Notes under the pieces: model-generated
Database searches by the model: none
Seen by the model: the letters and a program-made list of their open reading frames with translations, nothing else
Told to the model about the DNA's origin: nothing
Assembly (NCBI GenBank): GCA_002712005.1
Contig: PASP01000017.1
Location: 1 to 64,000 of the forward strand
Length of the DNA stretch: 64,000 nucleotides
Direction: 5' to 3'
Origin: Halobacteriovoraceae bacterium
Lineage (GTDB): Bacteria; Bdellovibrionota; Bacteriovoracia; Bacteriovoracales; Bacteriovoracaceae
In this document: positions 30,174-38,161 of the stretch, one piece after another
How positions within the stretch are numbered: the stretch's first letter is position 1
How the letters are laid out: each line of letters begins with the position of its first letter
Translations under genes and position numbers: made by a program

Positions 30174-31184
30174 ATGTTAAGTGGTCTAAAATTAATCAAT
30201 TTACCTCCATCTCAAGAGTTTGAGCAAAGTATTAGCGCTCAAAACTCTGGAAATGTCTTCATCCTACGCACTTGCCAAAGAACGCTCTTGCTCGGATTTA
30301 ATGAAGGTCCTAAGAATTTAATTTCTAGGGCAGAGAACCACCACCAAAATGATCAGTTAGAAGAAAAGGACAAGGAAACACTTCCCCAAGAAGAATTCAC
30401 AGGTTCAGATGCCTACGAATTTCTCCTCGAAACCATTTGTGGTCTCAAAAGTCGAATCCTTGGAGAAAATGAAATTGTTCACCAATTTAAAGAGGCTTAC
30501 TCTCAATTTTTAGAACATTCAAATCCTAATCGCCACGTGCAAAAGATTCTTGAAAAACTCTTTAAAGATGCCAAAAAAATTAGAACGAAACATTTACGTG
30601 AAATAGGGCTTCAAACCTATGCAGGAATTGTTCGAAAAATTCTTAATGAAAAACTATTAGGGGCAGACTTAGACACGCCTATCCTCATACTAGGTTCAGG
30701 ACAACTCGCTGAAGATATTATTAAGATATGCTATCGAAAGTTTAATCTGACGATTTGTGCCCGAAATGAAAACAGAGTAGAAGAACTTATTTCTCGTCAC
30801 TCAAAACACACGATTCATCATGTCCCTTGGTTCCAACCAGAAGAGATTGCCAAGTACCCTATTATTATCAACACCATTGGAACGGATGATATTCTCTTTG
30901 ATCATAAATTCTTCCAATCATGGAAAGTCTATCAAAAGAATACTTTTCACACAGAAGAACTTTTTATCGACCTATCCGAACCCTCCCCCATCGAAAGCCA
31001 TTATCAAATTGAAGATGGACTGTGGAGGCTTCAAGATATTTTTGCCCAAGGGGAAAAGCTTTCTAAGGCGAGAGAAGATAAATTAAAAGAAGCGCAAAAG
31101 GCCATTCAAGGTGTTTGTGAAACAAGGGCCGAAAGCCTTACTTTTCATATGCCCTTCGGTTGGGAAGAGCTCCAATTCGCCTAA
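30174..31184 (+). CDS. hemA: glutamyl-tRNA reductase
   Basis: 336 aa. Reduces glutamyl-tRNA to glutamate-1-semialdehyde, the first committed step of heme synthesis. The catalytic cysteine is in TCQRT (residue 34; usually CNRT), followed by GLKSRILGENEIVHQFKEAY (canonical G-x-SxxxGExQI), a NADPH-binding site ILGSGQLAEDI and INTIGTDD. The N-terminus is about 15 residues shorter and the C-terminal dimerisation helix is short compared with the roughly 420-residue family norm. No Shine-Dalgarno before the ATG. It heads a heme gene cluster. Confidence 0.9.
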   Translation: MLSGLKLINLPPSQEFEQSISAQNSGNVFILRTCQRTLLLGFNEGPKNLISRAENHHQNDQLEEKDKETLPQEEFTGSDAYEFLLETICGLKSRILGENEIVHQFKEAYSQFLEHSNPNRHVQKILEKLFKDAKKIRTKHLREIGLQTYAGIVRKILNEKLLGADLDTPILILGSGQLAEDIIKICYRKFNLTICARNENRVEELISRHSKHTIHHVPWFQPEEIAKYPIIINTIGTDDILFDHKFFQSWKVYQKNTFHTEELFIDLSEPSPIESHYQIEDGLWRLQDIFAQGEKLSKAREDKLKEAQKAIQGVCETRAESLTFHMPFGWEELQFA

Positions 31185-31283: not shown

Positions 31284-31580
31284 ATGAAAAAGAAACCGTA
31301 TATTATTGGAACTCGAGGAAGTTTATTGGCCCTTACCCAGTGTTTACAGATGAAAAACATAATGGAAGAAAAAGGGCTTGGTAAATTTGAATTAAAAATT
31401 ATCAGTACCCAAGGAGATGAGAATACTCAGGCTCCTTTATGGCAGCTTGAGGGAAAGGACTTCTTTACCAAAGAGCTCGATGCTGCTCTTTTACAAGGAG
31501 AAGTAGATCTCGTTGTACATTCCTATAAAGATTTAGGAAGTGAAAGACCTGAAGGAATAGAATTGGCAACAGTGACTTAG
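31284..31580 (+). CDS. hemC: hydroxymethylbilane synthase, N-terminal fragment before an in-frame TAG
   Basis: 98 aa: IGTRGSLLALTQ, ISTQGDENTQAPLWQLEGKDFFTKELD, VDLVVHSYKDLGSERPEGIELATV. These are the opening motifs of porphobilinogen deaminase. The frame then meets TAG and continues with RYYAHDILF, the expected next conserved stretch (R-x-x-x-(H/R)D-x-L). It cannot be functional alone, since the substrate-binding domain 2 and the cofactor cysteine lie downstream. Confidence 0.88.
   Translation: MKKKPYIIGTRGSLLALTQCLQMKNIMEEKGLGKFELKIISTQGDENTQAPLWQLEGKDFFTKELDAALLQGEVDLVVHSYKDLGSERPEGIELATVT
31578..31580 (+). other. in-frame TAG inside hemC
   Basis: Codons run GTG ACT TAG CGT TAT. Homology to hydroxymethylbilane synthase continues on both sides in the same frame, so this is a single premature or recoded amber codon. 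C follows the TAG. Confidence 0.9.
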
Positions 31581-31646
31581 CGTTATTATGCACATGATAT
31601 TCTCTTCATTAAAAATGAAACCATCGCTAAACTTCAAAATAAAGAA

Positions 31647-32909
31647 ATGGAATCATTTGTTGTAGGAACATCTTCACCACGACGAATGACTAATATTACC
31701 AAATATCTTAAACAATATCTTCCCTATGGTGTCGAAAAGAATATCGATATCAGCTGTAAATCTCTCCGAGGAAATGTAAACACTCGTCTAGAGAAATTAT
31801 TAAATGATGATTACGATGCCATAGTCTTAGCGCTTCCAGGAATTGAGAGACTGGCCATGGGATTGCCCGATCATGATAATGAAGCATTTGAAAAACATGG
31901 AGACCCTAGGGCGATATTAAGTGAGCTTTTAAAAGATCTCAATTTCATGATTCTCCCCTTATCTGAATTTCCTGCTGCGGCTTCTCAAGGAGCCCTTGGA
32001 ATCGAGTGTTTATCCCACAGAGAGGATAATAAGGAATTATTAACGAAACTTCAGAGTTTGAATTGCCAACAAACCAAAAAAGAAGTGGCCTACGAAAGAG
32101 AGGTCTTTCAATCTTTTGGTGGAGGCTGTCATTTGGCCGTAGGTATATCGGCCAGATGGAATAAGCAGGCCGAAAAAGTAAGAATGAATATTCGTGGTCA
32201 AGTAGATGAACAAGTCATTGATCGTCATGAATTGAAAGGTCGTGAACTCCCTTCTTTAAAGAAAACAGAGAAGGTTTTCTTAGGAATTGGAAAGTCTATA
32301 AGTATTGATGATAAACGCAGTACAATTAGAGATGAGATCACTGAAAAGAAGCCAACCTTAAAAAATATTTTAGCTGAAATTGAAGATGAACACGTTTTCA
32401 TGACCAGTGGAAGTGCCCTTGATTACGCTACAGAAGTACCGGAACATATGAAACTCTTAAAAGAGAGTTATCTATGGTCGAGCGGAATTCATACCATGAA
32501 GAAAATGGCTGCAGCAGGACTTTGGGTCCAAGGAAGTGCTGACTCATTAGGAGAAGAAGAGGTTCAGAATTTGGCACAATCTCATCTCGTCCAATTGAAG
32601 TGTGGAAAAAGAAGTTGGAAAGTGCTCACTAATGATTCTTCTCAAAGTACCTTGGGACCAACTCTTGGGGTTTATACCAAAGAATTCAAAGAAGCGAATG
32701 ATTCTTATCAGTCAACGATCGAGTCATGCGATATATATTATTGGACGAGTTATCCTCAATATAAATATTTCCAAGAGCACTTCAACCTCAATCAATCCGC
32801 TTATCACTGTTGCGGCCTTGGAAAAACCTTAAAAAACCTCCAAGAAGAAAACTTAGAACGTTTGATCAGTTTTTCTTCCATGAAAGAATTCCAAGATTGG
32901 ATTAAGTAA
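31647..32909 (+). CDS. hemC: hydroxymethylbilane synthase C-terminal part fused to a uroporphyrinogen-III-synthase-like domain
   Basis: 420 aa from the first ATG after the TAG, although homology starts at least 22 codons earlier in the same frame. VVGTSSPRRMTNI, SLRGNVNTRLEKL and the dipyrromethane-cofactor loop GGGCHLAVG mark hydroxymethylbilane synthase. From about residue 230 a second domain follows with FMTSGSALDYA, GLWVQGSADSLGEEEV, LTNDSSQSTLG and YYWTSYPQYKYF, probably a divergent HemD (HemCD fusion). hemL follows after 31 bp. If the TAG is not read through, the window's only hemC is broken. Confidence 0.85.
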   Translation: MESFVVGTSSPRRMTNITKYLKQYLPYGVEKNIDISCKSLRGNVNTRLEKLLNDDYDAIVLALPGIERLAMGLPDHDNEAFEKHGDPRAILSELLKDLNFMILPLSEFPAAASQGALGIECLSHREDNKELLTKLQSLNCQQTKKEVAYEREVFQSFGGGCHLAVGISARWNKQAEKVRMNIRGQVDEQVIDRHELKGRELPSLKKTEKVFLGIGKSISIDDKRSTIRDEITEKKPTLKNILAEIEDEHVFMTSGSALDYATEVPEHMKLLKESYLWSSGIHTMKKMAAAGLWVQGSADSLGEEEVQNLAQSHLVQLKCGKRSWKVLTNDSSQSTLGPTLGVYTKEFKEANDSYQSTIESCDIYYWTSYPQYKYFQEHFNLNQSAYHCCGLGKTLKNLQEENLERLISFSSMKEFQDWIK

Positions 32910-32940: not shown

Positions 32941-34206
32941 ATGAACCAAAATGAACTTTTTGAAAAATCAAAATGCATGGTCCCCGGCGGAGTCCACTCT
33001 CCCGTAAGAAGCTTCAAGGGATTACATACGACTCCTAAATTTATAAAAGAGGCCAAAGGTGCCAAGTTTTGGGATACAGATGGCAAAGAATATATCGACT
33101 TCTGTATGAGTTTTGGACCTCTTATATTAGGCCACCAAAACGAAGAAGTATCCGTTAAATTGAAAGAACAACTTGATCGAGGTTGGTCTTATGGCGCCTG
33201 TGAACCATACTCTCTAGATCTTGCTGAATTTCTAGTCTCTAAGCTCGACTTCATTGATCAAATTCGTTTCGTAAACTCTGGAACAGAAGCCGTTATGACG
33301 GCGGTACGTTTGGCCAGAGGGGTGACGAAGAAAAATAAAATTATTAAATTTAATGGATGTTATCACGGACACCTTGATTCCCTACTCATTAAAGCTGGAT
33401 CAGGTTTGGCCGGTACAGCAGAAGCTTCAAGTGCTGGAGTCCCCGCTTCAATTGCCTCTGATACTCTCGTGCTCGAGTTGGGTGATCTCAATGCTGTGAA
33501 AGAAGTTTTAGAAAATAATAAAAATGACGTCGCCTTAATTGCCATTGAGCCGCTGCCTGCAAATAATGGACTCCTTCCTCAAGATCTAGAATTCCTTAAA
33601 GGACTAAGAAGCCTTTGTGATGAATATGGCGCCTTACTCCTATTTGACGAAGTTATATCGGGATTCCGTGTAGGTCTAGGAGGAATGGCCGCTAAAACAG
33701 GAATTACTCCTGACATTGTGACCTATGGTAAGATCATCGGAGGAGGACTTCCCGTTGGCGCCGTCGGTGCAAAAAAAGAAGTTATGGAATATCTGGCACC
33801 AGTGGGCCCTGTCTATCAAGCGGGAACATTGAGTGCGAATCCTTTGGCCATGGTTGGTGGCCTAAGTACCCTGACTCAACTTACTGAGGAAAACTACAAG
33901 TTATTAGAAAATAATACTCTCAAAATAGTGGCCCTCTTTAAGAAGTGGTTTAAAGAATATAATAACGGTCAATTCTCTCATCTTAATATGGTAAGTGAGT
34001 CCTCACTCTTTTGGATCCACCCAGGTGAGGCGCCTAAGAGGGCTTGCGATATTCCAGCAAATTTAGCGGATGAGTTCTATACACTCTTTGAAATCTTACT
34101 TGAAAAAGGAATTTACTTGGCTCCAAATGCATACGAAGTTGGGTTTGTTTCATTGGCCCATAATGAAGCGATCATTTCCGAATTAGAGCAGAAGTTATTC
34201 TCCTAG
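32941..34206 (+). CDS. hemL: glutamate-1-semialdehyde 2,1-aminomutase
   Basis: 421 aa. PLP enzyme making 5-aminolevulinate. PGGVHSPVRSFKG at the start, VNSGTEAVMTAVRLAR, GCYHGHLDSLLIKAGSG, LLFDEVISGFRVG, and the PLP lysine in TYGKIIGGG. All catalytic elements present, normal length. GAGAAAAGGA stands before the ATG. Ends in TAG, nearly touching the next gene. Confidence 0.96.
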   Translation: MNQNELFEKSKCMVPGGVHSPVRSFKGLHTTPKFIKEAKGAKFWDTDGKEYIDFCMSFGPLILGHQNEEVSVKLKEQLDRGWSYGACEPYSLDLAEFLVSKLDFIDQIRFVNSGTEAVMTAVRLARGVTKKNKIIKFNGCYHGHLDSLLIKAGSGLAGTAEASSAGVPASIASDTLVLELGDLNAVKEVLENNKNDVALIAIEPLPANNGLLPQDLEFLKGLRSLCDEYGALLLFDEVISGFRVGLGGMAAKTGITPDIVTYGKIIGGGLPVGAVGAKKEVMEYLAPVGPVYQAGTLSANPLAMVGGLSTLTQLTEENYKLLENNTLKIVALFKKWFKEYNNGQFSHLNMVSESSLFWIHPGEAPKRACDIPANLADEFYTLFEILLEKGIYLAPNAYEVGFVSLAHNEAIISELEQKLFS

Positions 34207-34214
34207 GATAGAGA

Positions 34215-35144
34215 TTGAAGCAAGTCAGCCGCCTATTCTTAGGACTCACCTTTCTTTACACACTTTTGATTTGTGCCCTAGGCTCATGGTGGCTCTATCT
34301 TATTATTCAATATGGTGGAAAGCTGGAGACTTTATTAGGTAATGAAGATAAAGGGAAAGTTATCTCTATGGTAAAGTGGGAGGGGCTTACTTTCTTTGCC
34401 CTCTTACTCCTACTTACGGCTTCTCTACTCTTTCTCTATTTTAAAGATCTAAAGAAGACCAAGTCTTTACAGGCCTTCTTTGCCAGCATGACTCATGAGC
34501 TTAAAACACCTTTGGCCAGTGTAAAGTTACAAGGAGAGGTCATCTCAGATTCTATTGAAAGAATAGATTATCAACTTCTCGCAAAGGATAGGTCCTACCA
34601 AGATAAGCTTAAGAATAACCATTTAAAATTATCTCAAAGACTAGTAGAAGACGCTAATAAGCTTGAGACAACTATGGATAAAATTCTTCAGCTCTCACGT
34701 TTAGAAGGCGGTGGCGATCTTCATCTCGGAAAAGTTGAACTTGATAAGGTTTTTGAAGAAGTCATCTCTGGATATGGCAAAAGTATTGAGGTCCACGCAG
34801 ACTGGCAACATTCCAAAGAAATTCTTGCCGATGAATTTGCTGTGACTCTCATTCTCAAAAACTTTATAGAGAACACCCTTCACCATAGCGAATCTAAAAA
34901 GATCTGGATTGAAACTCAAGACACTCTCGAAGGAGTTAAGTTCATCTATGAAGATAAAGGACACTTTAAGGGTGATCCGCAGAAATTAGGAACTCTCTTT
35001 TACAAGCATAACTCTAAAAAGGGCTCAGGCATTGGTCTCTACTTAACTAAAGTTCTGATGAATAAAATGCAAGGAAAATGGAGCTTTCAAATTGGAGAAG
35101 GAATGCGCTTTATCTTAGATTTCAAATCAAGGAGCCTTTCATGA
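34215..35144 (+). CDS. sensor histidine kinase in the heme cluster
   Basis: 309 aa from a TTG start. Two helices (about 9-32 and 55-77) with only a short loop between, so it probably senses membrane or cytoplasmic cues. DHp domain with THELKTPLASVKLQ (phospho-His), ATPase N box LKNFIENTLHHS, G boxes KGSGIGLYLTK. Overlaps the response regulator by ATGA and lies 8 bp after hemL, so it is embedded in the heme transcript. A role in regulating heme synthesis or responding to iron or oxygen is inference. Confidence 0.9.
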   Translation: MKQVSRLFLGLTFLYTLLICALGSWWLYLIIQYGGKLETLLGNEDKGKVISMVKWEGLTFFALLLLLTASLLFLYFKDLKKTKSLQAFFASMTHELKTPLASVKLQGEVISDSIERIDYQLLAKDRSYQDKLKNNHLKLSQRLVEDANKLETTMDKILQLSRLEGGGDLHLGKVELDKVFEEVISGYGKSIEVHADWQHSKEILADEFAVTLILKNFIENTLHHSESKKIWIETQDTLEGVKFIYEDKGHFKGDPQKLGTLFYKHNSKKGSGIGLYLTKVLMNKMQGKWSFQIGEGMRFILDFKSRSLS

Positions 35145-35857
35145 GTGTGTCCTACAATCGAGATATGAATAAGATACTTATTGTCGAAGACGAAGAAAAT
35201 CTCGGAATCACCTTACAAGAGTATTTAGAAAATATTGGCTACGATGCCTATTTGGCCCAAAGTGTTCAGCAGGCCCAAGAGATCTTTAATTCTGTTGAAC
35301 CCCATGTGGTGCTCATGGACATTGGTCTTCCCGACGGCTCGGGATTGGATTTGGCCAGATGGATGAGAAAAAAGAAGGATACATTTCTTCTTTTCTTTCT
35401 CTCGGCCCTAAATGATCCCGATACTAAAGTAGAAGGTCTAGAAATTGGTGCAGAAGACTATATTACGAAGCCCTTCGCCCTTAAGGAATTAACTCTTAGA
35501 CTTGAACGCTCCTTTCAATTAAAGAAGCAGATGTTAGAGCTTCCCGATGAATTATCCCATGGGAAGTTAAAAATATGGTTTAGTAAATTTCAAGTTCAAG
35601 ATGCCGCTGGAGAGATTATCCATTTAGGACAGAAAGAATGTGCCATTTTAGAGCTTCTCTACCAATCAAAGGGGAAGGCCTTTACGCGCGATGAAATTAT
35701 TGATCGAGTATGGGGTGAAGATAAATATCCCTCTCACCGAACGGTTGATAATTATATTGTGAAACTCAGAAAATGGTGTGAAACCGACTCTACAACACCC
35801 CTTGAAATCCAGTCCATAAGAGGAATTGGCTATCAGTTAAATATAAAGAACGATTAA
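35141..35857 (+). CDS. OmpR-family response regulator in the heme cluster
   Basis: 238 aa from the ATG that overlaps the kinase stop, with AAGGAG 6 bp upstream. Receiver domain: IVEDEEN, phospho-Asp in VVLMDIGLPDGSG, Lys in TKPFALKEL. C-terminal winged helix: GQKECAILELLYQSKGKAFTRDEIIDRVWG, HRTVDNYIVKLRKW, IRGIGYQL. Cognate to the kinase just upstream. hemE follows after 24 bp. Confidence 0.93.
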   Translation: MSVSYNRDMNKILIVEDEENLGITLQEYLENIGYDAYLAQSVQQAQEIFNSVEPHVVLMDIGLPDGSGLDLARWMRKKKDTFLLFFLSALNDPDTKVEGLEIGAEDYITKPFALKELTLRLERSFQLKKQMLELPDELSHGKLKIWFSKFQVQDAAGEIIHLGQKECAILELLYQSKGKAFTRDEIIDRVWGEDKYPSHRTVDNYIVKLRKWCETDSTTPLEIQSIRGIGYQLNIKND

Positions 35858-35881: not shown

Positions 35882-36922
35882 ATGGGATTATTTAATGACA
35901 GAAAGAAAACGCAAGATGGAAAAACCGGAGTACCCGTTTGGTTTATGAGACAGGCCGGAAGATACCACCAGCACTATCAAAATATTAAGAAAGATTCTGA
36001 CTTTATGACAATGTGTAAAACACCACAATTAGCGTGTGATATTACAATGGGACCTATCGAAGAATTCCATTTCGATGCGGCCATTCTCTTCAGTGATCTT
36101 CTCTTTCCCCTTGAGCAAATGGGTCTAGGACTCAAATATGCACCCGGTCCAAAATTAGATAAGCACCTAAACTCACTTGATATTGTTAAAAATCTAAGTC
36201 CATTAGCACCGGCCAAAGAATTCTATCATTTTCAAAAAGAGGCCTGTGAATTACTCAAAAAGGCCCTACCTCAAGATCGTACACTTCTTGGTTTTGTTGG
36301 CGCTCCATGGACTCTTTATACTTATGGTGTAGATGGTGGACATGCTGGAAACCTGATTGAACCTAAGAAAGGACTCTTTGATGGAAGATGGGAGGCCTTC
36401 TGTGATTTCCTCTTTGAGAATCTGCTTACAGAAATGGATCTGCAAGCTCAAGGTGGAGCGGACGCGATGTGTATGTTCGATACTGCAGCAGGAGAATGTG
36501 CTTTCGAAGAGTATCGTGATTATATCATTCCTCAAATCAAGAAGATCACGGCCGAGTTCAAAAGAAGACATCCTGATGTAAAGATTATCTACTATTCAAA
36601 GCTGACGCACACAAGATATCTTGAAGCGATTGAAGATGATCATATCGATGTCTTAGGCGTAGACTGGAGAATGGATCTGCCTGCGACTCTTAAACAATTT
36701 GGTAAAGACTATATGATTCAAGGAAACTTTGATCCGGCCCTTCTTCATTTACCTTGGGAAAACTTAGAGCAGAAATTAAAAGATTGGTGGCAACTGATGG
36801 AATCGAGTGATGCCCCTCTTGATCGTTGGATTTGTGGTCTAGGACACGGAGTTCTCCAAAAAACACCAGAGCAGAATGTCTTTAAAACCGTACAATTCAT
36901 TCATGAGAATATGAAGTACTAA
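35882..36922 (+). CDS. hemE: uroporphyrinogen decarboxylase
   Basis: 346 aa. PVWFMRQAGRYHQHYQ, AAILFSDLLFPLEQMG, GFVGAPWTLYTY and ICGLGHGVLQKTPEQNV are hallmarks. Removes four carboxyls from uroporphyrinogen III to give coproporphyrinogen III in the cytoplasm. AACGAGGAAAG precedes the ATG. hemN starts 6 bp after the stop. Confidence 0.96.
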   Translation: MGLFNDRKKTQDGKTGVPVWFMRQAGRYHQHYQNIKKDSDFMTMCKTPQLACDITMGPIEEFHFDAAILFSDLLFPLEQMGLGLKYAPGPKLDKHLNSLDIVKNLSPLAPAKEFYHFQKEACELLKKALPQDRTLLGFVGAPWTLYTYGVDGGHAGNLIEPKKGLFDGRWEAFCDFLFENLLTEMDLQAQGGADAMCMFDTAAGECAFEEYRDYIIPQIKKITAEFKRRHPDVKIIYYSKLTHTRYLEAIEDDHIDVLGVDWRMDLPATLKQFGKDYMIQGNFDPALLHLPWENLEQKLKDWWQLMESSDAPLDRWICGLGHGVLQKTPEQNVFKTVQFIHENMKY

Positions 36923-36928
36923 TTCTTA

Positions 36929-38161
36929 ATGACACTCGCTAAAAAGCTATTAGACTTTCACTCTCCAGGGAATCGTTTCTCTTACTATCCTCTTACCAGT
37001 AAATGGGAAGAAGTTAAGAAGACCGCTCCCTCTCTTCCGTCTCCCTCAACTGAGGGATTCGGAATTTATATCCACATCCCCTTTTGTCGTGAAATTTGCA
37101 CCTACTGTGGTTGCAATATAAAGATCTCAAATCAAAAAGAGGAACATCTTCAATATGTGAAGGCCCTTTCCATGGAGAAGAAGTTAAGATGGGATAAAAT
37201 CAATCCTCCTTCCGATCTTCTCAATATAACATTTGGCGGAGGTACACCAAACTTCTTAAACCCGAAGGCCAAGGAACTACTCTTAGAAGAACTAGGTCCC
37301 CTTATTGGCGCACAAACGAGTTCAGGTCAAATGGAAGTGGATCCGCGCTATTTCACAAGAGAAGATGCTCAGTGGGCCTTTGCCCTTAAAATAAATCGCT
37401 TTAACTTTGGGGTTCAAGACTTTAATAGTGAAATTCTTAGTAATGTAAATCGCAGACAATCTCTCGATCATCTCCATCGTGCTAAAGAAGCTCTCCTGCC
37501 TCAACAAATAATGGGAATGGATCTCTTATGGGGCCTACCCAAGCAAGATGAGAGGAGTATGAAAAACTGGTACTCTCACCTAAAGACCTTAGCGCCAGAT
37601 TGGATATCTTTCTATCCCCTAGCAAAGGTTCCATGGCTAGAGTCTATACAAAATGCCTATGGTGATTTTACCTTACCGGATAGAGAGAGGAAATATGAAC
37701 TCTATCAATGGGGTGTAGAGATTTTTGAGTCCCTTGGATATCGCAACCAAGGAATGGGTCATTTTGTGAAAAAGAATGGCCCCTTAGATCAGACACTTTA
37801 TCGTAAAGTAAGTGGACTCTTCCCGCAAAAGACTCCCTACCTTATGGGACTTGGTGTTTCAGCGATTACAGAGGGTCCTGACTTTATGGCCCAAAACTAT
37901 AAGATTCTAGATCGCTATTTATTCTCCCTGCTCAAGAAGAATGAGCTTCCGCTTTTTAAATTTCATAAGAAAAGTCAGAAAGAAAAACAAATGAATCAGT
38001 TGGTTGAAGATATTTTTAGCCATCACACCATTCCTGAGCTTCTCAAACAAAGGGTTCCTGAAGAATGGAGAGAGCCTAATTCCAATGACATCTCCAATCT
38101 TGGGCTTCATTTTAAAAAGAATATTATGCAAATTGGGGAAAAAACAATTTTTGAGGCATAA
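36929..38161 (+). CDS. hemN: oxygen-independent coproporphyrinogen III oxidase (HemN type)
   Basis: 410 aa radical SAM enzyme. IYIHIPFCREICTYCGC gives the CxxxCxxC iron-sulfur motif plus the following CxC cysteine typical of HemN. FGGGTPNFL is the SAM-binding GGGTP motif, and NRFNFGVQDF and MGMDLLWGLP follow the family. The first 20 residues (FHSPGNRFSYYPLTSKWEE) match the HemN 'trip-wire' region. Works without oxygen. It is about 45 residues shorter than E. coli HemN. A second radical SAM gene follows 9 bp later. Confidence 0.92.
   Translation: MTLAKKLLDFHSPGNRFSYYPLTSKWEEVKKTAPSLPSPSTEGFGIYIHIPFCREICTYCGCNIKISNQKEEHLQYVKALSMEKKLRWDKINPPSDLLNITFGGGTPNFLNPKAKELLLEELGPLIGAQTSSGQMEVDPRYFTREDAQWAFALKINRFNFGVQDFNSEILSNVNRRQSLDHLHRAKEALLPQQIMGMDLLWGLPKQDERSMKNWYSHLKTLAPDWISFYPLAKVPWLESIQNAYGDFTLPDRERKYELYQWGVEIFESLGYRNQGMGHFVKKNGPLDQTLYRKVSGLFPQKTPYLMGLGVSAITEGPDFMAQNYKILDRYLFSLLKKNELPLFKFHKKSQKEKQMNQLVEDIFSHHTIPELLKQRVPEEWREPNSNDISNLGLHFKKNIMQIGEKTIFEA

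Follow-up and report, generated by a model that had tools for sequence, protein, structure and literature searches.

The only hemC gene in the 3.96-Mb draft genome of a Halobacteriovoraceae bacterium (Bacteriovoracaceae; assembly GCA_002712005.1) is interrupted by a single in-frame TAG codon, which is probably a false base in the draft assembly, the organism's own gene for a HemC-HemD fusion protein (hemCD) being probably intact. The gene is located in the window, i.e. the whole stretch of 64,000 nucleotides under analysis (contig PASP01000017.1, positions 1 to 64,000). Translation of the + strand from 31284 to 32909 yields a frame of 541 codons plus a terminal stop, with one interruption at codon 99 (TAG, 31578-31580). 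The 98 codons upstream of this stop (31284-31577) encode the start of the HemC domain including the VHSYKDL motif, and the 442 codons downstream (31581-32906) encode the HemD domain preceded by the remainder of HemC, which contains the cofactor-binding motif GGGCHLAVG. The Pfam profile Porphobil_deam matches both parts in register (profile positions 2-91, E = 3e-27, and 97-204, E = 7e-20), and the interrupted hemC is thus not a chance assembly of motifs. The original prediction had proposed that hemC is split by one in-frame TAG, with hydroxymethylbilane synthase sequence continuing in the same frame on both sides, and translation and the profile matches confirm this. Our genome-wide search for a second hemC, which had been suggested as a check, returned the interrupted copy only.

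The gene shows no decay on either side of the TAG. When compared with 32 relatives, hemCD retains 76 of 76 invariant and 55 of 55 nearly invariant positions, of which 44 and 37, respectively, are found downstream of the stop. A long-dead gene would look unlike the one in the window, but a very recent lesion would leave no decay either. We aligned codon 99 with the corresponding codon of 80 Bacteriovoracaceae hemC genes, a comparison that had likewise been proposed, and found glutamate (40), lysine (36), glutamine (3) or arginine (1) at this position, and in none of the 80 a stop. The five congeners with hemC have lysine or glutamine. A whole-genome search in 47 relatives with a hemC match, a set that partly overlaps the 80, detected no internal stops. 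The named relatives are nearly all metagenome-assembled Bacteriovoracaceae. Two more distant relatives each contain two hemC matches on opposite strands, ∼5-7 kb apart.

The C-terminal half of the fusion had been assigned to HemD by inference. No sequence model detects this half, and the final 207 residues of the relatives' protein are without a Pfam or NCBIfam match, HemD models included. We modeled the full-length protein from a congener (mean pLDDT 90.7) and found that its N-terminal part resembles solved porphobilinogen deaminases. The model of the C-terminal 207 residues, calculated for the relatives' domain rather than for that of the window, has a pLDDT of 94.4, and a Foldseek search with it returned nine matches at E < 0.001, all of which are HemD (uroporphyrinogen-III synthase). 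The best structural match has a Z-score of 15.0 (r.m.s.d. is 2.7 Å comparing 188 aligned residues). Judged from this predicted fold, the HemCD fusion assignment is right. HemD sequences diverge widely, and the HemD domain in the window (32270-32906, approximate boundary) goes unrecognized by Pfam and NCBIfam, with a clear predicted fold in its relatives' equivalent. Sequence-based annotation would report HemD as missing from Bacteriovoracaceae. Our literature search on HemCD fusions in relatives of Bdellovibrio returned nothing.

The remaining heme genes of the cluster are intact, as had been noted before: a hemA-like gene for glutamyl-tRNA reductase (30174-31184; PF05201, E = 2.5e-16), hemL (32941-34206; NF000818, 516.8 bits), hemE (35882-36922; PF01208, E = 4e-82) and a hemN-like gene (36929-38161; TIGR00538, 197.8 bits, under its cut-off) are all open on the + strand. 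An intact hemB is found on a different contig. Located between hemL and hemE (34215-35857) are genes for a histidine kinase and its partner response regulator, which may form a heme- or redox-linked regulator.

The hemC stop is not alone. We sampled 1.66 Mb (42% of the genome), plus 400 kb from each of two congeners, and sought stops within alignments to homologues and within coding-like sequence. The first further cases came from family searches, in which a response-regulator domain and an ABC ATPase each proved to be interrupted by a lone TGA. The sampled sequence contains at least 12 lone in-frame stops in otherwise intact genes, at least 11 of them outside hemC. TAG codons interrupt hemCD (C18, 31578), mreB (C15, 44839), a solute-binding protein (C7, 85453), an amine-oxidase-like flavoprotein (C9, 94129) and a metallopeptidase (C7, 238143), the last being the weakest case, identified from coding statistics and frame length. 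TGA codons are located in an ABC ATPase, at the P-loop glycine (C15, 377954), in a secreted CxxCH-motif protein (C15, 98333), in the receiver domain of a hybrid kinase (C15, 125043), in a second ABC ATPase (C4, 150244), in a penicillin-acylase-like protein (C7, 42971) and in a large protein without assigned role (C9, 17506). The one TAA is found in a NAPE-PLD-like hydrolase (C16, 95255). The interrupted mreB is the only true mreB gene of the genome; its product is 99% identical to that of a congener, and the TAG stands where a glutamate is conserved. Homology confirms nine lone stops in 598 kb, compared with no genuine case in 466 kb of the two congeners (p ∼0.006), and unrelated genes thus carry more lone lesions here than in relatives, an excess that a real mutational burst would produce as well. 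One candidate in a congener, an apparently interrupted ABC-F gene, turned out to be a gene that ends normally, with a ferritin-like gene behind it. That at least 11 further genes are interrupted in the same manner makes a base error in the draft the most likely cause, and a recent mutation a less likely one.

The type of base change is biased. All six TGA stops occupy positions at which the best homologues have glycine (p ∼2e-4 under equal substitution rates), which points to a G-to-T process; two of these are motif glycines. Together with the mreB TAG, seven stops are compatible with G-to-T changes. For the other five, including hemC, the relatives do not decide the type of change, and the hemC codon cannot be assigned to G-to-T, as its closest relatives have lysine or glutamine. 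Solved homologues at three of the weaker sites have a glycine (penicillin acylase), a lysine or glutamine (binding protein) and a variable residue (metallo-hydrolase). The single TAA among 12 stops is fewer than expected from a plain G-to-T process (p = 0.003), and neither a base error nor a recent nonsense mutation explains this shortage well (p = 0.003-0.007). Further lone stops with a biased type of change shift the weight from hemC biology to a base-level cause acting genome-wide.

We next consider sequence quality. Frameshifts are nearly absent from the sampled sequence, which argues against raw long-read error, and long-read indels were discarded as a cause. The sampled sequence contains 28 isolated, clustered Ns (contig C7, 30043-33301 and 243671-249484; C9, 49726-58118 and 111378-118821; C4, 60336-68960), compared with none in the samples from the two congeners. 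Base calls are thus ambiguous in places, though not beside the stops: the nearest N is 5.5 kb away from a stop, and C15, C16 and C18 have no N in the portions sampled. By eye we could not detect a common motif around the stops, as might arise from modified bases. With the few alignment columns at hand, we could not show that conserved sites carry more G-to-T missense changes than expected. Our literature search on false stops in metagenome assemblies returned nothing.

Taken together, we favor a single base-level error process that would have made the lone stops through G-to-T miscalls, for which damaged DNA or low coverage is a possible cause, with such artefacts reaching the consensus. The hemC TAG may belong to the same set of errors, in which case heme synthesis would only seem to be lost. 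We count in favor of a base error that hemC and hemB are kept together with the other genes of the pathway, that the conserved positions of hemCD are intact, and that Ns are absent in the congeners. Against it stand the distance of the Ns from the stops, the hemC codon that cannot be assigned to G-to-T, the rarity of TAA and the undemonstrated missense excess. If the stops are errors, annotation would wrongly describe the bacterium as heme-deficient and as lacking MreB, and the biased lone stops are a warning that this draft genome may be unreliable at the level of single bases. Of the three explanations put forward in the original prediction, an assembly error and a recent nonsense mutation both remain, whereas readthrough or suppression is not supported, given that no CUA tRNA was found, that RF1 is intact and that TAG is an ordinary stop.

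A real and very recent nonsense mutation, by which the sequenced lineage or the majority variant of its population has lost HemC, is a possible but clearly less probable explanation. It is likewise doubtful, to about the same degree, that heme or its precursors are obtained from elsewhere, perhaps from prey, and that the other stops are recent losses from a burst of G-to-T mutations. A single lesion with no other decay is what a recent event should leave, and the biased spectrum suits oxidative mutation as well as an oxidative artefact. Loss of heme synthesis is also known in the family: six Bacteriovoracaceae genomes, rated 87-99% complete, are without both hemC and hemB, which suggests that the pathway has been lost in parts of Bacteriovoracaceae. 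It is hard to accept, however, that mreB and hemC, each of them the only copy in the genome, are both dead, and hemA, hemB, hemL, hemE and the hemN-like gene have all been kept. As mutM and both HhH-GPD genes (MutY/Nth family) are intact, a classic mutator is not evident, and we rejected loss of MutM or MutY as the source of the bias.

Readthrough, in which UAG, and in the other genes UGA, would be decoded by a suppressor tRNA or through altered termination, is improbable. It would account for the full constraint on the sequence on either side of the TAG, and TAA should be rare if tolerance is limited to UAG and UGA. None of the 34 tRNA genes in this genome has a CUA or UCA anticodon, however, and the amber-suppressor tRNA that had been proposed as a check was not among them: the corresponding pattern matches nothing but the loci of tRNA-Leu(UAG) and tRNA-Glu(UUC). 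With the genome rated 97.5% complete, a further tRNA gene may, strictly speaking, be absent from the assembly. The gene for RF1 is intact (prfA is open, 508.6 bits), and in the sampled sequence 1090 long genes end in TAG 268 times (about one quarter) and in TGA 135 times. By these measures there is no sign of amber suppression or of UAG reassignment. Relatives have no stops at the equivalent places, the P-loop and receiver-domain sites would demand the insertion of exactly glycine, and at the hemC stop nothing matches Rfam and the RNA downstream folds only weakly (z = -2.5). The broader proposal that the stops are real and tolerated, with UAG and UGA but not UAA being usefully read through by an undetected suppressor, an altered ribosome or an altered release factor, appears slightly less probable still, and so does its corollary that HemCD, MreB and the other proteins are made from the interrupted genes; the TAA shortage is the sole sign in its favor. 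If real and read through, the stops would represent a case of broad stop-codon tolerance, against which the evidence stands. The least probable explanation is a split gene, in which a 98-residue N-terminal piece would work together with a 420-residue piece restarted at the ATG at 31647, the nearest one after the TAG in the hemCD frame: this restart drops 22 post-stop codons including positions invariant in relatives, none of the relatives has a split gene, and the break would fall inside one folded domain.

We finally compared the window with known systems. In Gracilibacteria and SR1, UGA is read as glycine, and the TGA codons at glycine positions found here resemble this reassignment. It differs from our case in that we find about 12 sites in 1.66 Mb, that TAG and TGA serve as ordinary stops, and that both release factors but no matching tRNA are present. 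The window gene conforms to the HemC family (PF01379, TIGR00212) in that it has a Porphobil_deam domain with both halves in register and the conserved catalytic and cofactor motifs, and it differs by the in-frame stop at 31578 in the assembled sequence, where the family has an uninterrupted frame, and by the fused C-terminal HemD domain. A HemC-HemD fusion has been named in Leptospira interrogans (PMC8698207), with HemC followed by HemD in a single chain as in the window. The fusion type seen here runs through Bacteriovoracaceae and has a HemD part too diverged for Pfam and NCBIfam. Oxidized guanine is a documented source of artefactual G:C to T:A errors in sequencing libraries (PMC8748355), and the lone stops resemble this error type in their compatibility with G-to-T changes, their occurrence in unrelated genes and the near lack of accompanying frameshifts, whereas TAA is rarer here than such artefacts would lead one to expect.
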